Made by a program: the position numbers and the translations under genes. From Synechococcus sp. C9 (GTDB taxonomy: Bacteria > Cyanobacteriota > Cyanobacteriia > Gloeomargaritales > Gloeomargaritaceae), in NCBI RefSeq assembly GCF_022984075.1, contig NZ_JALAAD010000001.1:1344455-1408454 (forward strand): a stretch of DNA of 64,000 bases. Reading direction: 5' to 3'. The notes under the pieces are model-generated. The model saw only the letters and a program-made list of their open reading frames with translations. It was not told where the DNA came from and made no database searches. This document shows positions 17,929 to 62,065 of the stretch, piece after piece (within the stretch, counting starts at the first letter, position 1; every line of letters starts with the position of its first letter).

Positions 17929-18345
17929 AACCAGTTCCTTTGTAAAAACGCCATTCTATTTTAATTTAACTACAGGGCACCTCTATTTATTGTCACTACT
18001 GGAAGATTATTTCGCTGAGATACCTATATTATTGAGAACCACAGACGGGGGCTATGCCCCTGCGACCTATTTTTGGAAGTTCCCTTTAGTTCATTACTAT
18101 AACCCACTCAAAAGTTTTAAATAAACTAGGATTGCTATACTTACAAGGCTGTAGCACTACCGGCTTGTCATCTCTTAAAACAGTCTGCTTCAGCAGGTCG
18201 CTCAAAAGTCAGATTCCTGTGGGGGTGAGGGTCATGAGGGCAGAATACAGGCACGAGTGTGACCATCCTAAGATGTAAAGTGGTTAGGAAAATGTTCCTA
18301 GCTCTCTGGGCTAATGCTATCCTATGAAAAACTTTTCGCAGTACA
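17929..18345. other. Gene-free gap upstream of petN and of the multi-sensor gene
   Basis: About 417 bp between the divergent petN and the PAS/GGDEF gene. The middle holds a degenerate family B repeat (18034-18139). No small gene or RNA was recognised in the rest. The promoters for both directions must lie here. Confidence 0.6.
18034..18139 (-). repeat. MITE-like element, family B, degenerate copy
   Basis: Starts GAGAACCACAGACGGGGGC with the hairpin form GGGGGCTATGCCCC, and ends with the family B terminus AGGATTGCTATA at 18128-18139. The opposite terminus is lost. It corresponds in reverse orientation to the intact 123-bp copy at 36136-36258. Confidence 0.65.
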
Positions 18346-36135: not shown

Positions 36136-36258
36136 TATAGCAATCCTAATTGATGTGCATTAGCTTGCGTGCCGTAGGCATACAAAAATTTTTCAGAACC
36201 AAGGACGGGGGCAGTGCCCCGGCGACCCCCTGTTCCATTCTCATTTAGGATTCCTATA
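36136..36258 (-). repeat. MITE-like element, family B, intact copy
   Basis: A 123-bp element with near-perfect terminal inverted repeats TATAGCAATCCTAA and TTAGGATTCCTATA. It contains the family hairpin GGGGGCAGTGCCCC followed by the shared AGAACCAAGGACG stretch (in reverse). It lies in the gap between the beta-lactamase-like gene and the 5'-nucleotidase gene. The length matches the 124-bp period of the array at 54066-54555. Confidence 0.8.
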
Positions 36259-37261: not shown

Positions 37262-37330
37262 TAGCAATTAAGCAACAGAAATTTCCCAGAACCAAGTACG
37301 GAAGCGGTGCCCCGGCGACCTATCGGTACC
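37262..37330 (-). repeat. Family B repeat relic
   Basis: Contains GTAGCAATTAAG and AGAAATTTCCCAGAACCAAG, followed by GCGGTGCCCCGGCGACC. It shares the AACCAAG-GC hairpin block with the intact copy and is closely similar to the relic at 61735-61775 (AACAGAAATT.CCCAGAACCAAGTAC). It has no intact termini. Confidence 0.5.
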
Positions 37331-48287: not shown

Positions 48288-48584
48288 ATGGCACGCTGGA
48301 ATGATGAAATGCTGGATCGCTTGGCCGACCAAACCCAAGCCAACACTGAGGCAATTAGCCAGTTACACGTTCAAACCCAAGCCAATGCTGAGGCGATTAC
48401 TCGGTTAGAAGCGCAAGTATCCGAACTGCGGGAGGGGCAAGCGATGATGATGCAAATTATCATGCAACAACAAAGTTCCATTGAAGAATTGCGTCAAGAT
48501 ACCCGTACCATACAAGCGGATGTGCGCTTACTTTTGGATGTCCTCACCCGCAATTATCCCAACGGTCATCAAGGGGTAAATTAG
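48288..48584 (+). CDS. Coiled-coil protein, tandem copy 1
   Basis: A 98-residue, largely helical protein starting [20 protein letters not shown]. It has heptad-like repeats ([20 protein letters not shown]), a Gln/Met-rich middle ([20 protein letters not shown]) and a short tail ending YPNGHQGVN. Coding bases are identical to copy 2 over all 297 nt; only the upstream flank differs. It is probably a self-associating coiled coil. No domain family was recognised, though short proteins of this style are common in cyanobacteria. Confidence 0.75.
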   Translation: MARWNDEMLDRLADQTQANTEAISQLHVQTQANAEAITRLEAQVSELREGQAMMMQIIMQQQSSIEELRQDTRTIQADVRLLLDVLTRNYPNGHQGVN

Positions 48585-48614
48585 TAAGTAGAAATCATAA
48601 TTGGAGTTGACCCT

Positions 48615-48911
48615 ATGGCACGCTGGAATGATGAAATGCTGGATCGCTTGGCCGACCAAACCCAAGCCAACACTGAGGCAATTAGCCAGTTACACGTTCA
48701 AACCCAAGCCAATGCTGAGGCGATTACTCGGTTAGAAGCGCAAGTATCCGAACTGCGGGAGGGGCAAGCGATGATGATGCAAATTATCATGCAACAACAA
48801 AGTTCCATTGAAGAATTGCGTCAAGATACCCGTACCATACAAGCGGATGTGCGCTTACTTTTGGATGTCCTCACCCGCAATTATCCCAACGGTCATCAAG
48901 GGGTAAATTAG
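48615..48911 (+). CDS. Coiled-coil protein, tandem copy 2
   Basis: Encodes the same 98 residues as copy 1; the two genes are identical at every base, and the 30-nt spacers differ at one base from that before copy 3 (GAGTTGACC vs GAGTTAACC). The start spacing is exactly 327 bp. This points to very recent duplication or ongoing gene conversion. Each copy has its own GGAG-type ribosome-binding site in the spacer. Confidence 0.75.
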   Translation: MARWNDEMLDRLADQTQANTEAISQLHVQTQANAEAITRLEAQVSELREGQAMMMQIIMQQQSSIEELRQDTRTIQADVRLLLDVLTRNYPNGHQGVN

Positions 48912-48941
48912 TAAGTAGAAATCATAATTGGAGTTAACCCT

Positions 48942-49259
48942 ATGGCACGCTGGAATGATGAAATGCTCGATCGCTTGGCTGACCAAACCCAAGCCAACAC
49001 TGAGGCAATTACCCGGTTGGAAGCTAAAGTTGAGGCGAATGCTGAGGCAATTACTCGGTTAGAAGCTAAAGTTGAGGCAAATACGGAGGCGATTCGAGAA
49101 CTGCGGGAGGGGCAAGCGATGATGGTGCAAATTATCATGCAACAACAAAGTTCCATCGAAGAATTGCGTCAAGATACCCGTACCATGCAAGCGGATGTGC
49201 GCTTACTTTTGGATGTCCTCACCCGAAATTATCCCAATGGACATCAAGGGGGTAACTAA
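48942..49259 (+). CDS. Coiled-coil protein, tandem copy 3 (diverged, 14-residue internal repeats)
   Basis: A 105-residue relative of copies 1 and 2 with the same ends but a different middle: two 14-residue units ([14 protein letters not shown] and [14 protein letters not shown]) and a third partial unit. Fourteen residues equal two heptads. Its stop is one base before the lgt start, so it is probably translated with lgt. It may be the ancestral form or an adapted copy. Confidence 0.75.
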
Positions 49260-51845: not shown

Positions 51846-52201
51846 CCAAATGCCCCAAACCCATCGCCCTAGTTTTCTCCAAAGCATGGTTATTCCTGCT
51901 GTAGCAATTGCACTTGAATTGTAAGTAAACTTCTATACTTAAAAAGTTCATGGTCACAGAGCACCGCCCCGTCTTTGGTTCTCAGGCATTTCTATTCTTT
52001 TACAGTCTATTTATCAATTAAAGGATACAAAAAGCCTCGATTATCCTAAAGGCTTAGCATGATTGACCTACAGCAAGTGGGGTTCAATTGTATCCCATTC
52101 CCATAACCACTCAAAAGACTGTAATCCGGTAGAATTGGTGTATCAGTACAAATGGTGCTAATTCTGGTATGCTAAAAGGGCATTTAATATAAGTACAAGT
52201 C
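51846..52201. other. Gap containing repeat relics and the upstream region of a TPR gene
   Basis: A 356-bp gap. It holds a weak family B-like stretch (about 51955-51992: GTCACAGAGCACCGCCCCG, then TCTTTGGTTCTC) and an intact inverted family A element (52003-52121). I see no small gene. The last 75 bases must contain the TPR-gene promoter and ribosome-binding site. Confidence 0.6.
52003..52121 (-). repeat. MITE-like element, family A, inverted copy
   Basis: A 119-bp element with termini CAGTCT (52003-52008) and AGACTG (52116-52121), flanked by TA at 52001-52002 and 52122-52123. It matches the copy nested in the IS5-type transposase in reverse orientation, including AAAAAGCCTCG and TTCAATTGTATCCCAT. 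Confidence 0.8.
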
Positions 52202-53355: not shown

Positions 53356-53472
53356 GCGTGGGGTTTACCTGACTTCTGGGTTAATCCACTCCCTGACCCG
53401 AAAGTAAGTCCTTGTGGTACACAAACCCATCCCCTTATACTCGGAGTGCAAACACATTCAGGCAGGGAATGG

Positions 53473-54063
53473 ATGGCACGGGTAGCAGTAGTTTATTTTT
53501 CCGGTAGTGGGCACACCCATTTGATGGCTGAGGCGGTGGCGCAGGGGGCGGACTCGGTAGGGGAAACAACGGTGGATTTATTGCGGATTACGGGCGAACA
53601 GATCACCAATGGGCGTTGGCGGGATGAGGGGGTGATGGATGTCCTCAACCGGGCGACAGCGATTGTTTTTGGTTCTCCGACCTACATGGGTGGGGTGGCG
53701 GCGCAGTTCAAGGCATTTCTGGATGCGGTCAGCGGGGTGTGGTTTCAGCAGGGCTGGAAGGATAAGTTGGCCGGGGGCTTTACCCATTCCGGTTCCCTGT
53801 GTGGCGATAAGCAGGGGACGTTACTCTATCTCGCCATCAATGCCGCCCAACACGGGATGATCTGGGTGGGGTCAGCGGAAATGCCGGACGGAATGGGGGT
53901 CAACCGCCTGGGGTCGTTTCTAGGGGTGATGGGGCAAAGTCCCTTGGATATGAGTGGTGCCCCGGCCACCCTGGAGGCGGGAGATGGGGAAACGGCCAAG
54001 CGGTACGGTCAACGGATTGCTAAAATAGCGCAACAGTGGCAGGAAGTGATAAAACAAATTTGA
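53473..54063 (+). CDS. Flavodoxin-like NAD(P)H:quinone oxidoreductase (WrbA-type)
   Basis: The 196-residue FMN-binding protein starts at ATG 53473 after GCAGGGAATGG. The FMN phosphate loop is VVYFSGSGHTHLMAEAVAQG, followed by IVFGSPTYMGGVAAQFKAFL and the conserved GVWFQQGWKDKLAGGFTHSG. WrbA-type enzymes reduce quinones by two electrons under oxidative stress. An unusual palindrome precedes it. Confidence 0.85.
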   Translation: MARVAVVYFSGSGHTHLMAEAVAQGADSVGETTVDLLRITGEQITNGRWRDEGVMDVLNRATAIVFGSPTYMGGVAAQFKAFLDAVSGVWFQQGWKDKLAGGFTHSGSLCGDKQGTLLYLAINAAQHGMIWVGSAEMPDGMGVNRLGSFLGVMGQSPLDMSGAPATLEAGDGETAKRYGQRIAKIAQQWQEVIKQI

Positions 54064-54065
54064 AT

Positions 54066-54555
54066 GTTTTTGAATATGGGGCACTTCTAAAAATAGGTCG
54101 CAGGGGCACCGCCTCCGTCCTTAGTTCTGGAAAATTTCTGTATGCCTCCGGCACGCAAACTAACGTTAATCAAATAAGACTGCTATAGCAATCCCAAGTA
54201 AGTTTAGAATAGGGGTCGCAGGGGCGTAGCCCCCGTATTTGGTTCTGGAAAATTCCTGTATGCCTCCGGTACGCAAACTAACGCTAATCAAATAGGACTT
54301 TTGTATCTATAGCAATCCTAAATAAGAATGGAACAGGGGTCGCAGGGGCGTAGCCCCCGTTCTTGGTTCTGGAAAATTCCTGTATGCCTCCGGCACGCAA
54401 ACTAACGCTAATCAAATAGGACTTTTGTATCTATAGCAATCCTAAATAAGAATGGAATAGGGGTCGCAGGGGCGTAGCCCCCGTTCTTGGTTCTGGAAAA
54501 TTCCTGTATGCCTCCGGCACGCAAACTAACGTTAATCAAATAGGACTGCTGTATA
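54066..54555 (+). repeat. Tandem array of four family B MITE-like elements
   Basis: Hairpin starts (GTCGCAGGGG) occur at 54097, 54215, 54339 and 54463; intact unit starts (TATAGCAATCC) at 54184, 54308 and 54432 are exactly 124 bp apart. Each unit contains CAGGGGCGTAGCCCCCG (5-bp GC stem, GTA loop), TCTGGAAAATTCCTGTATGC and CGGCACGCAAACTAACG. Unit 1 is truncated and most diverged; units 3 and 4 are almost identical. The array fills the gap upstream of the S-layer-homology gene. Confidence 0.85.
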
Positions 54556-54677
54556 TGCTGATTATCTACAGAAAATTTTAAGACTAATCCGGTCTATAAA
54601 AGTTCCGCTAATGAACCAGAGGAACTTGGGTAAATTGCTTCCGTCTAAGCGGGCAGTTGTTACGTTATCAATCACCT
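54556..54677 (+). promoter_or_regulatory. Leader region of the S-layer-homology gene
   Basis: About 120 bp between the repeat array and the ATG at 54678. No canonical promoter could be fixed by eye, so transcription may originate in the array or here. Ribosome-binding purines close to the ATG are weak. Confidence 0.3.
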
Positions 54678-56015
54678 ATGCACACTACTTGGATGACCCG
54701 CCTAGGGCTTGCGGGTGGCTTGATTTTGACCTTAGCTACTCCTGGTTTCGCCTTCAGTGATACCCAAAATTTCTGGGCAAGTCGGTGTATTCAAGAATTA
54801 GCCAATCGGGGCATTGTTGGAGGTTATCCTGATGGAAGTTTTCGCCCCAATAATCCCGTGACCCGGGCAGAATTTGCCGCCCTGGTTGACCGGGCTTTTT
54901 TAACTGGTTCAGGAGCCAGAGGGGGTGCTACGTTCTGGGATGTTTCCCGCAATTTTTGGGCTTATGATGCGATCAATCAAGCGGCGGGGGCGGGATTTTT
55001 GTCCGGTTATCCCGATGGGACATTTCGACCTGAACAAAATATTCCCCGGGTGCAGGTTTTGGTGGCGCTCAGCAGTGGGCTGAATGTGACTCCCACCCAG
55101 CCACCGGCAGGGATTTTGAATCGGCTTTACCAGGATGCGATGAGTATCCCGGATTATGCCCGCCCTGGGGTGGCGGCCGCCAGCGAGCAACAGTTGGTGG
55201 TGAATTATCCCGATGTGAATATCCTGCGCCCCAACCAGTTGGCTTCCCGGGCGGATGTGGCGGCTAGTTTGTGCCAGGGACTGCGGTTAGCGGCTATTCC
55301 CAATCAGTACATTGCCGGTTATATGCCGACGACCCCTGCCCAACCCTCAACGGCGACCATTCCCCAGGGAACCCTGATGGTGACCCGCTCCGGCACGCAA
55401 CGGGTGATCCTCGCCCCCCAGGAGACCCTGCCCTTGACTCTGGATGTGGCGCAGGAGGTACGGGATAGCCAAGGACGGGTGGTAATTCCGGCTGGGAGTA
55501 GGATTCAGGGGCGGTTGCAACCGGCGGGGCCAGGTTCCCAGTTTGTGGCGCAAACCATCACCATCGGGGGACAAACCCTGCCCTTGAATGCCACCTCGCA
55601 ACCGGTGCGGCGGACTCAGGAGGTGAGTGAGCGGAGTTTACGACCCATTTTACCCGGAGCCTTGGTGGGAACGGCGGCGGCGGCTCTGATTGCGGGGGTG
55701 TCCGGTGACCGGCGCATTGAGGCGGGGGAAGTGCTGGCGGGTACCGTCACGGGAGCGGCGGCGGGCTTAAATTGGGGGCGCAAACCGGGGCAAGCCCTGC
55801 GGGATTTTGGGATTGGTGCGGGTCTGGGTGCCGCTGTGGGGGGGCTGTCCGGTGACCGGCGGGTGACCCCTACGGAAGTCCTGGGCGGTGCGGTTCTGGG
55901 TTCGGTGGTCGGGGGTGCGGCGGACCGTCGCCAAATTCGGGAAGTGATCGTGGTGGAACCGGCAACCGATTTGGTACTCACGGTGAATGAACCCCTGACA
56001 GTGCCGTTGCCCTAG
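54678..56015 (+). CDS. S-layer-homology protein with TrbI-like domain and C-terminal glycine-zipper region
   Basis: The 445-residue protein has a signal peptide (LGLAGGLILTLATPGFAFSD) followed by SLH domains: FWASRCIQELANRGIVGGYP, FWAYDAINQAAGAGFLSGYP and a degenerate third. Next is a VirB10/TrbI-like beta segment (LDVAQEVRDSQGRVVIPAGS). The C-terminus has glycine-spaced hydrophobic repeats, with two copies of a GVSGDRRIEAGEVLAG / GLSGDRRVTPTEVLGG unit flanking AVLGSVVGG-type zippers. SLH domains bind peptidoglycan-linked polymers, so it is an envelope protein. The combination with zippers is uncommon to my knowledge. Confidence 0.82.
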   Translation: MHTTWMTRLGLAGGLILTLATPGFAFSDTQNFWASRCIQELANRGIVGGYPDGSFRPNNPVTRAEFAALVDRAFLTGSGARGGATFWDVSRNFWAYDAINQAAGAGFLSGYPDGTFRPEQNIPRVQVLVALSSGLNVTPTQPPAGILNRLYQDAMSIPDYARPGVAAASEQQLVVNYPDVNILRPNQLASRADVAASLCQGLRLAAIPNQYIAGYMPTTPAQPSTATIPQGTLMVTRSGTQRVILAPQETLPLTLDVAQEVRDSQGRVVIPAGSRIQGRLQPAGPGSQFVAQTITIGGQTLPLNATSQPVRRTQEVSERSLRPILPGALVGTAAAALIAGVSGDRRIEAGEVLAGTVTGAAAGLNWGRKPGQALRDFGIGAGLGAAVGGLSGDRRVTPTEVLGGAVLGSVVGGAADRRQIREVIVVEPATDLVLTVNEPLTVPLP

Positions 56016-58795: not shown

Positions 58796-59860
58796 TAAAA
58801 CTTAACATAAGGGGTCAGGGTTATCCTACGAGCGGCTCTACCCCTACGAGTTCCATGAAGCTACAGTGTCGGCCTATTTCTATTTGTAAATATCGCAACT
58901 TGTCAATCAATTCATAGGTCTTATTGTGACCTATCTCCAGCAATCTTAAAATTAGATAACCAATCAATACGGCATAAATCTGTAGCCGCACACCATTCTC
59001 ATTCTTGGTAATGATTCTATCCAATTTCAAGTGCATCTTTAGTGCCTTCCAAAGCAACTCAATTCGCCAGCGCAAACGATAGGCTGAACAAATCTCTTCA
59101 TCCGTCATCGAAGTCACGTTAGTCGCTAGCCTATATTCTGTGTTTTCCTCTTCATTAAAAAATTGAATTACCCGAATATCCGGATTGTCAGGTTGCAACT
59201 TCATATTATTTCTAATCCGCACAATAAACAATGTATTTCGTTTACACATTTCGTCCATTAATTTCCAGGAAGCAAAACCCCTATCCATGATACCAACGGC
59301 ATTCTCAGGTATCGTCCCAATCACAAGATGCCCAATTTTATGGTCATTAGTCTTTCCAAATATAATTGATTCGTCACCGATATTGCCCTCATTTATATCC
59401 AGGCCAAGCGTCAATTTTACCTGCTTGTAGTGCCAGAATAATTTGCTGGTCAGGGTGATAATGGTAGAATCTAATGGGAATAAGTGCTTAAATTCACCTT
59501 GATGATGTTTAAGCCGTTTTTGCAGTTCTCTTAGGATCACTTGAAACGGCTCGGTGCTACGATGTTTACACGCCTTAGAAAACGTTGATATGTCAACTTT
59601 AAAATTGAGATGATTCAAGAGGAAGAATAAGCCCCGCATGGTGGCGACTCTTGCATCTAAAATGAAGTGCATCCATATGAGTACAAACAAGCGAGTATCC
59701 AAGACTGGATAGTCGTTTTTGGGAAGAAGGTTCAGCAAGGGCTTGATAAGTCCCTGAATTTGTCGTCTCATAAAAATACTGTTACTCGTGGTTTCTACCA
59801 ATCTAAAATACCATTTTTAGTCTCCCTTTTCCACCCTTTCGTTAACATTCAACACTACTG
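58774..59860 (-). mobile_element. IS4-type insertion sequence with 9-bp target duplication
   Basis: The inverted repeats CAGTAGTGTTGAATGT (58774-58789) and its complement (59845-59860) bound the element. The target duplication GGTTTTAGG is at 58765-58773 and 59861-59869. Total length is 1087 bp with one transposase gene. The 9-bp duplication and a YREK-like motif agree with IS4/IS10-type elements. It lies in the 3' end of the epimerase gene, just before the convergent gatC. Confidence 0.92.
58821..59771 (-). CDS. IS4-type DDE transposase
   Basis: The start at ATG 59771 gives 316 residues (a TTG at 59801 would add ten). DDE blocks are FPLDSTIITLTSKLFWHYKQ, NAVGIMDRGFASWKLMDEM and YRLRWRIELLWKALKMHLKL, the last with the Y-R-E-K spacing of the family. 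The full frame is intact and the terminal repeats are perfect, so the element may be mobile. Confidence 0.92.
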   Translation of the reverse strand: MRRQIQGLIKPLLNLLPKNDYPVLDTRLFVLIWMHFILDARVATMRGLFFLLNHLNFKVDISTFSKACKHRSTEPFQVILRELQKRLKHHQGEFKHLFPLDSTIITLTSKLFWHYKQVKLTLGLDINEGNIGDESIIFGKTNDHKIGHLVIGTIPENAVGIMDRGFASWKLMDEMCKRNTLFIVRIRNNMKLQPDNPDIRVIQFFNEEENTEYRLATNVTSMTDEEICSAYRLRWRIELLWKALKMHLKLDRIITKNENGVRLQIYAVLIGYLILRLLEIGHNKTYELIDKLRYLQIEIGRHCSFMELVGVEPLVG

Positions 59861-61681: not shown

Positions 61682-62065
61682 GTGGGCAGTGCCAGCTTTG
61701 TCGGTGCTTTGAGCGGGTTTCCTGCTCGATTAACCAACAGAAATTCCCCAGAACCAAGTACAGGGGTGGTGCCTCCTATTGTTCCTCTTGCTGAACAGCC
61801 CCCTACATTTACTTTTGTTTCCCTATTGAATCAAAATCAGGAACAATGGTTTTCCTTGGCAGGGCTGAATGCCCGGGAAATCATCCTCTCATCAGAGACC
61901 TTCTTGTGTACCACGGTGCCAGTGAATCAGGAGCAAGAGGAAGCCAAATCCTTTACCCTTTTTGTGCCGGGTTCAGAAGGGCGTGTGCAGATACCCATGC
62001 AAACCTATTGGCAACCCGGGCAATTCCTGGAATGTAAAGGGGAAACCGGTGTGAGCTTGCGATAA
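61682..62065 (+). CDS. Uncharacterised protein, N-terminus possibly contributed by a repeat
   Basis: Read from GTG 61682, the 127-residue frame begins VGSASFVGALSGFPARL, passes through a family B relic giving a Pro-rich NRNSPEPSTGVVPPIVPLAE, and ends in a soluble-looking C-terminus (FTFVSLLNQNQEQWFSLAGL, AKSFTLFVPGSEGRVQIPMQ). No domain is recognised and the start is weak. It may be a truncated gene whose 5' end was disrupted by a repeat. Confidence 0.35.
   Translation: MGSASFVGALSGFPARLTNRNSPEPSTGVVPPIVPLAEQPPTFTFVSLLNQNQEQWFSLAGLNAREIILSSETFLCTTVPVNQEQEEAKSFTLFVPGSEGRVQIPMQTYWQPGQFLECKGETGVSLR
61735..61775 (-). repeat. Family B repeat relic
   Basis: AACAGAAATTCCCCAGAACC, then AAGTACAGGGGTGGTGCC, matches the relic at 37262-37330 in the same orientation and the AGAACCAAG-hairpin block of the intact elements. 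The terminal sequences are missing. Confidence 0.5.

Follow-up and report, generated by a model that had tools for sequence, protein, structure and literature searches.

The 64,000-nucleotide window analyzed here (the whole stretch, G000:C1:1344455-1408454, from the 2.96 Mb genome G000 of Synechococcus sp. C9) carries, between a gene for an FMN-reductase-like protein and a gene for an S-layer-homology (SLH) protein, four head-to-tail copies of a miniature inverted-repeat transposable element (MITE), at 54078-54553. The array is likely to have arisen by head-to-tail amplification, in place, of a non-autonomous, IS630-derived MITE, and for the neighboring envelope gene it is most likely a passenger. 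Tandem Repeats Finder reports 54096-54554, with a period of 124, 3.8 copies and 91% matches, while the unit-to-unit steps across the array are 118, 124 and 124 bp, the three full units starting at 54184, 54308 and 54432. An earlier note, made from the letters of the window, had described three 124-bp units plus a truncated one. The array itself stands, but simple truncation does not: it is unit 1 that is incomplete, and it is chimeric.

The repeated unit belongs to what we term family A, with ends TAGCAATCC…GGATTGCTA, a long form of 118 bp and a short form of 97 bp that differ by a 21-bp hairpin insert, TATGCCTACGGCACGC, and an interior that carries a GC-rich hairpin core. Intact copies in G000 have the inverted ends TATAGCAATCCTAA and TTAGGATTGCTATA, and intact family-A copies fall into 97- and 118-bp classes between TA duplications; of 54 end pairs collected in G000, 23 measure 101 bp and 15 measure 122 bp from TATA to TATA. 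The end motif is found 409 times in G000 at one mismatch or fewer (control, 2), the core motif 232 times at three or fewer (control, 0), and the second-hairpin motif 116 times at three or fewer (control, 10). Counts from DNA searches are lower bounds throughout (40 of 392 first-look candidates were scored, for example), while pattern counts are complete. Motif matches occur in 7 of 39 genomes: G000 itself, five of its six congeners, and a single genome from outside the genus (L037, by the end motif alone); in G001 and G006 the core motif is the only one matched. Family A thus has the features of a MITE, being short and non-coding, with terminal inverted repeats, a target-site duplication and high copy number. 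Nothing in Rfam fits the element at gathering score, the sole match in the window being a tRNA, and a plasmid search with a 4-kb region returned, among the ten matches listed, only short ones near a tRNA gene.

A larger partner for the element is at hand. The Pfam family DDE_3 (IS630) is present in five of the seven genus genomes searched, and at one of 30 inspected DDE_3 loci, L102 in G004, family-A ends exactly frame the gene. This element is 1151 bp long, with two overlapping reading frames and TATAGCAATCCTA ends; homologs with the same ends occur in G000 (L118, C1:2734232-2735363, 1132 bp, also with two overlapping open frames as judged by eye) and in G002 (L119). The same 13-bp ends are found on DDE_3 elements in G000, G002 and G004, and the IS630-type copy in G000 resembles the MITE for about 27 bp on its left side. 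Two nested insertions reveal the target. Within the insertion sequence L119 of G002 lies a short-form copy, at a place where the uninterrupted G000 copy reads CACC-TA-TTA; within an IS630 element of G000 (L060) lies a MITE whose site, by comparison with the uninterrupted L118 and L102, reads AAAC-TA-TC. Because TA is duplicated in both cases, the element proper is TAGC...GCTA, of 97 or 118 bp, and the ancestral form comprises 118 bp and the TA duplication. Judged by its sequence, family A is a MITE derived from an IS630 (Tc1/mariner-type) transposon, probably moved by the transposase of its larger IS630-type relative. The inverted ends, the TA duplication seen twice and the same-ended IS630 transposon in G000 uphold the identification as a MITE made in the earlier note, and the genome-wide search for unit and transposase that it proposed finds family A abundant in G000, as it also is in close relatives, with a same-ended IS630-type element present in G000. 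The transposase gene in the window itself (58821-59801, minus strand) was considered as the mover and rejected; its product is a DDE_Tnp_1 protein, not of the Pfam family of IS630, and the gene is without flanking family-A ends among those found in the window.

All four array units lie on the plus strand. Unit 1 (54078-54187) is a chimera, because its left end, GGGGCACTTCTAAAAATAG, from 54078, belongs to a different repeat family, family B, and is joined in the hairpin core to the long right half of family A; only positions 25-122 of the nhmmer model of the long form align, and the left end fits family B. Unit 2 (54184-54307, by nhmmer), unit 3 (54308-54431) and unit 4 (54432-54553) are full long-form family-A MITEs. 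The junction of units 1 and 2, AGACTGCTATAGCAATCC (54177-54194; G000:C1:1398631-1398648), is a near-palindrome in which two ends share TATA, two-sided and direct. The junction of units 2 and 3 (54296-54316) carries a private 6-bp change, GGACTTTTGTATCTATAG, which recurs in identical form at the junction of units 3 and 4 (54420-54440), and the sharing of these two identical odd junctions by units 2-4 is a mark of unit duplication. CTCCGG and CAAAC together are exclusive to the four array units among the motif matches listed at two or fewer mismatches, and units 3 and 4 are 96.6% identical, compared with at most 91.4% for the best outside copy among those fetched. The window also holds a dispersed single intact long copy at 36136-36258 (minus strand), 123 bp from TATA to TATA, whose length had been taken to equal that of the array unit. 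Since 124 is the 118-bp ancestral element plus the 6-bp change at two junctions, this match is nearly a coincidence. That copies elsewhere are single, as had also been claimed, is true within the window and fails genome-wide, where tandem copies recur in G000.

The SLH gene has an ortholog in all seven genomes of the genus, with 94% protein identity in the sister species G002. At the array site, G002 carries a single intact copy of 118 bp. Its right flank can be aligned with the flank to the right of unit 4, and its left end is like that of unit 2, the two having AATCCCAA...GTTTAGAA in common. A single copy at the same site indicates that the array in G000 grew in place. In front of the SLH gene, a family-B copy stands in G004 and remnants of both B and A in G005, while by eye no full family-A element is seen there in G001, G003 or G006, and short core-like pieces are seen in G006 and G001. 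The gene next upstream differs between G000 and G002.

Tandem units join through a common palindrome, GGATTGC-TATA-GCAATCC, in three registers: with TATA shared, with TA shared, or with neither. A total of 24 junctions were scored at 19 places in three genomes, and all are direct, none inverted. The exact joint pattern, with 0-4 free bases, has matches in four of seven genomes (30 loci were returned, two further G002 sites gave none, and the looser L131 was excluded); those with an annotated element abutting both sides, 10 junctions at 8 places, are all direct by eye. Genome-wide orientation was scored by an orientation-neutral palindrome search, the longer motif hit lists for G000 being truncated and skewed toward the forward strand. 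At 18 bp and three or fewer mismatches, this search finds 40 sites in G000 (control, 1), of which 14 are two-sided (all direct, at 11 places), 24 are one-sided and 2 have no element on either side. In a systematic 400-kb sample with 62 hits, neighbors no more than 60 bp apart are direct in nine cases and inverted in one, and neighbors farther apart are direct in 11 and inverted in 22; the sample holds three abutting pairs, where uniform insertion predicts about 0.05. Further tandems have been noted. G000:C1:1819737-1819948 (L185-L187) is a short-form array with a period of 97 and three identical joints, and L066 3731-4195 (G000:C1:2623730 on) has four 123-bp units, each with a family-A left end and a family-D right end, CACTTGAATTGTGAG. 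Records under the names Nostoc, Trichodesmium and Oscillochloris contain the same joint; in L161 and L163 (titled uncultured Oscillochloris and Nostoc), abutting MITE-like elements have the same joint and different interiors, and inspection by eye suggests that the Oscillochloris pair is direct.

Eighteen arrays were compared for identity among units, with gaps ignored and the arrays chosen in part from forward-strand lists. In nine, a pair of units is closer to each other than to any fetched outside copy, in 712k and G002 1756k by a narrow margin; the other nine hold no such pair. Units in the uniform arrays 947k, G004 2479k and G004 370k are 98-100% identical, which points to unit duplication. 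The arrays G002 1690k and 412k each consist of an old copy abutting a young one, and between the two young copies identity is 100%; a young copy beside an old one is a mark of insertion into the end of the resident copy. Insertion beside a resident copy and unit duplication both seem, from these patterns, to occur, in keeping with the earlier suggestion of serial insertion or amplification, and unit duplication is the better supported at the array locus.

In the likely history of the array, an IS630 transposase acting in trans brought the MITE to the array site before the split of G000 and G002. Growth would then take two routes. A copy may land on a TA within a resident end or next to it, leaving the GGATTGC-TATA-GCAATCC joint, or a unit may be duplicated through slippage or unequal recombination between the TATA or TA at its two ends and, at a later stage, between whole units. 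Units 2-4 of the window array would have been made by duplication, while the left half of unit 1 would have been acquired from a family-B MITE through recombination within the GC-rich hairpin core common to both families. Several observations weigh against this account. Units 1 and 2 are roughly as near to outside copies (0.909 and 0.923) as to their fellows in the array, and comparisons with outside copies are limited to those fetched (135 in G000). Pure transposition predicts that about half of abutting pairs should be inverted, and none is; their absence needs either loss of long palindromes or another mechanism. Long palindromes are unstable in bacteria, so selection may explain why only direct tandems are seen. 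Finally, the predicted reciprocal chimera of unit 1 was not found at the G000 gene examined: the G000 ortholog of the gene upstream of the SLH gene in G002 carries an intact short-form copy and no reciprocal chimera, and the FMN reductase gene of G002 has a family-D-like remnant alone. The exchange behind unit 1 is therefore unproven.

The strongest alternative, possible but in our judgment doubtful, is that all tandem units arose by repeated transposition into the TA of a resident end, with inverted pairs lost as unstable palindromes. It would accommodate the nine of 18 arrays in which outside copies are nearer to the units than the units are to one another, and three joint registers are to be expected if any TA of the terminal TATA can be used; nevertheless, the private letters and identical odd junction shared by units 2-4, like the near-identical units of 947k, G004 2479k and G004 370k, point to unit duplication. 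Much less probable is a scheme in which transposase-made MITE circles with abutted ends, GGATTGCTATAGCAATCC, recombine into a resident copy. Such circles would account for the exclusively direct orientation and the exact 97- and 118-bp periods, but ISY100, as described in PMC2170065, yielded linear excised fragments in vitro.

The upstream gene (53446-54063, plus strand) encodes an NADPH-dependent FMN reductase-like flavoprotein (PF03358, E 4.7e-10), and the SLH gene (54678-56015, plus strand) encodes two S-layer-homology domains (PF00395, E 2.2e-30). The array ends about 30 bp upstream of a conserved segment of about 90 bp that precedes the SLH start codon; this segment (54586-54677, plus strand), outside the array, is kept in G002, G004 and G005 and has an inverted repeat, AAGTTCC..GGAACTT. 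In G002 (L042), a family-C MITE is inserted in the loop of that repeat, a natural disruption of the SLH leader. The earlier note had suggested that hairpins in a row could affect transcription or RNA stability of the envelope gene. That the array is a kept regulatory element, its hairpins ending FMN reductase transcription or tuning the SLH gene, strikes us as improbable. Three terminator-like hairpins lie on the plus strand, single MITE transcripts fold better than shuffled sequences (z -2.3 to -4.3), and four of seven genomes have a comparable repeat ahead of the SLH gene. The hairpins are weak, however, with poor T tracts, and follow automatically from the inverted ends; the region, taken whole, gives a plus-strand RNA that folds no more stably than shuffled sequences (z -1.24); the element upstream of the SLH gene differs between species, some having none; and the conserved segment lies downstream of the array. 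No match to a sigma-70-like promoter was found in the region. A claim that the array regulates the envelope gene is not justified. An assembly artifact is scarcely credible, as the array units differ in sequence and comparable arrays occur in G002 and G004.

Family B has the GC-rich hairpin core in common with family A. By left and right end type, the 62 sample hits comprise 21 A/A, 9 B/A, 8 B/B, 3 A/B and 21 others (family-B end control, 15/2000). It is conceivable, though we would not put it higher, that a resident MITE end is a preferred landing or duplication site yielding direct tandems only, and that the shared core lets families swap halves. If so, head-to-tail growth would be a regular route of multiplication for IS630-type MITEs with TATAGCAATCC ends, and half-swapping around the shared hairpin core would assemble new elements combinatorially. 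Core-sharing MITE families that trade halves can leave marks of genome rearrangement. When a 20-kb query was aligned to G002, blocks were often seen, uncounted, to stop at such repeats, as at window position 36137. Other repeats in the window include remnants or elements of other families at 18020-18072, 37267-37321, 51952-51997 and 61720-61774, which have mainly the hairpin core in common with the array units. Another MITE-like repeat, TACAGTCTATTTAT...AAAAGACTGTA, lies at 52001-52124; it has about 30 or more copies in G002, and its ends are like those of another IS630 element of that genome (L098, L115). The tandem repeat at 48288-49251, with a period of 327 and 2.9 copies, is in a stretch that looks coding.

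What was a puzzling repeat acquires an ordered history, with one ancestral copy, local growth and a chimeric edge. With a mobile partner and its non-autonomous element together, G000 offers a test system for how bacterial MITE tandems form and why all those seen are direct. In the open-licence PMC literature, as far as our searches of it extended, no report was found of head-to-tail IS630 MITE arrays in cyanobacteria, and the main text of a 2024 review of prokaryotic MITEs (PMC10969869), by a term search, is without the words tandem, nested and IS630. The closest described systems, from the accounts consulted, are RUP with IS630-Spn1 (PMC3049150) and ISY100 (PMC2170065). RUP (Repeat Unit of Pneumococcus), compared here by its published description, is a 107-bp MITE with ends like those of IS630-Spn1; family A resembles it, with copies also lying within IS630 copies, and is further marked by a hairpin core rich in GC, a long and a short form, halves of mixed origin and head-to-tail arrays, whereas the passages on RUP in PMC3049150 mention no arrays. 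ISY100 of Synechocystis (Tc1/mariner/IS630), likened by description and not by end sequence, is a cyanobacterial IS630-type element that inserts at TA and duplicates it, as family A does, but is autonomous (PMC2170065). The MITEs of Anabaena sp. 90 are likewise short inverted-repeat elements in many copies, but are called type II, with no matching insertion sequence, in the account in PMC3542288, while family A has one. Nezha, known here by title alone, is another cyanobacterial MITE. The composite repeats BOX and BIME combine modules in varying ways, and BOX has a tandem part (PMC3049150, in the sections on these repeats); what repeats in family A, by contrast, is an entire MITE, its ends included. 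Set beside the BIME/REP type, a mosaic of palindromic units, family A shows halves exchanged about a core together with MITE ends and a TA duplication. Tandems that are direct only, and halves that can be exchanged about a common hairpin, are the best new points.
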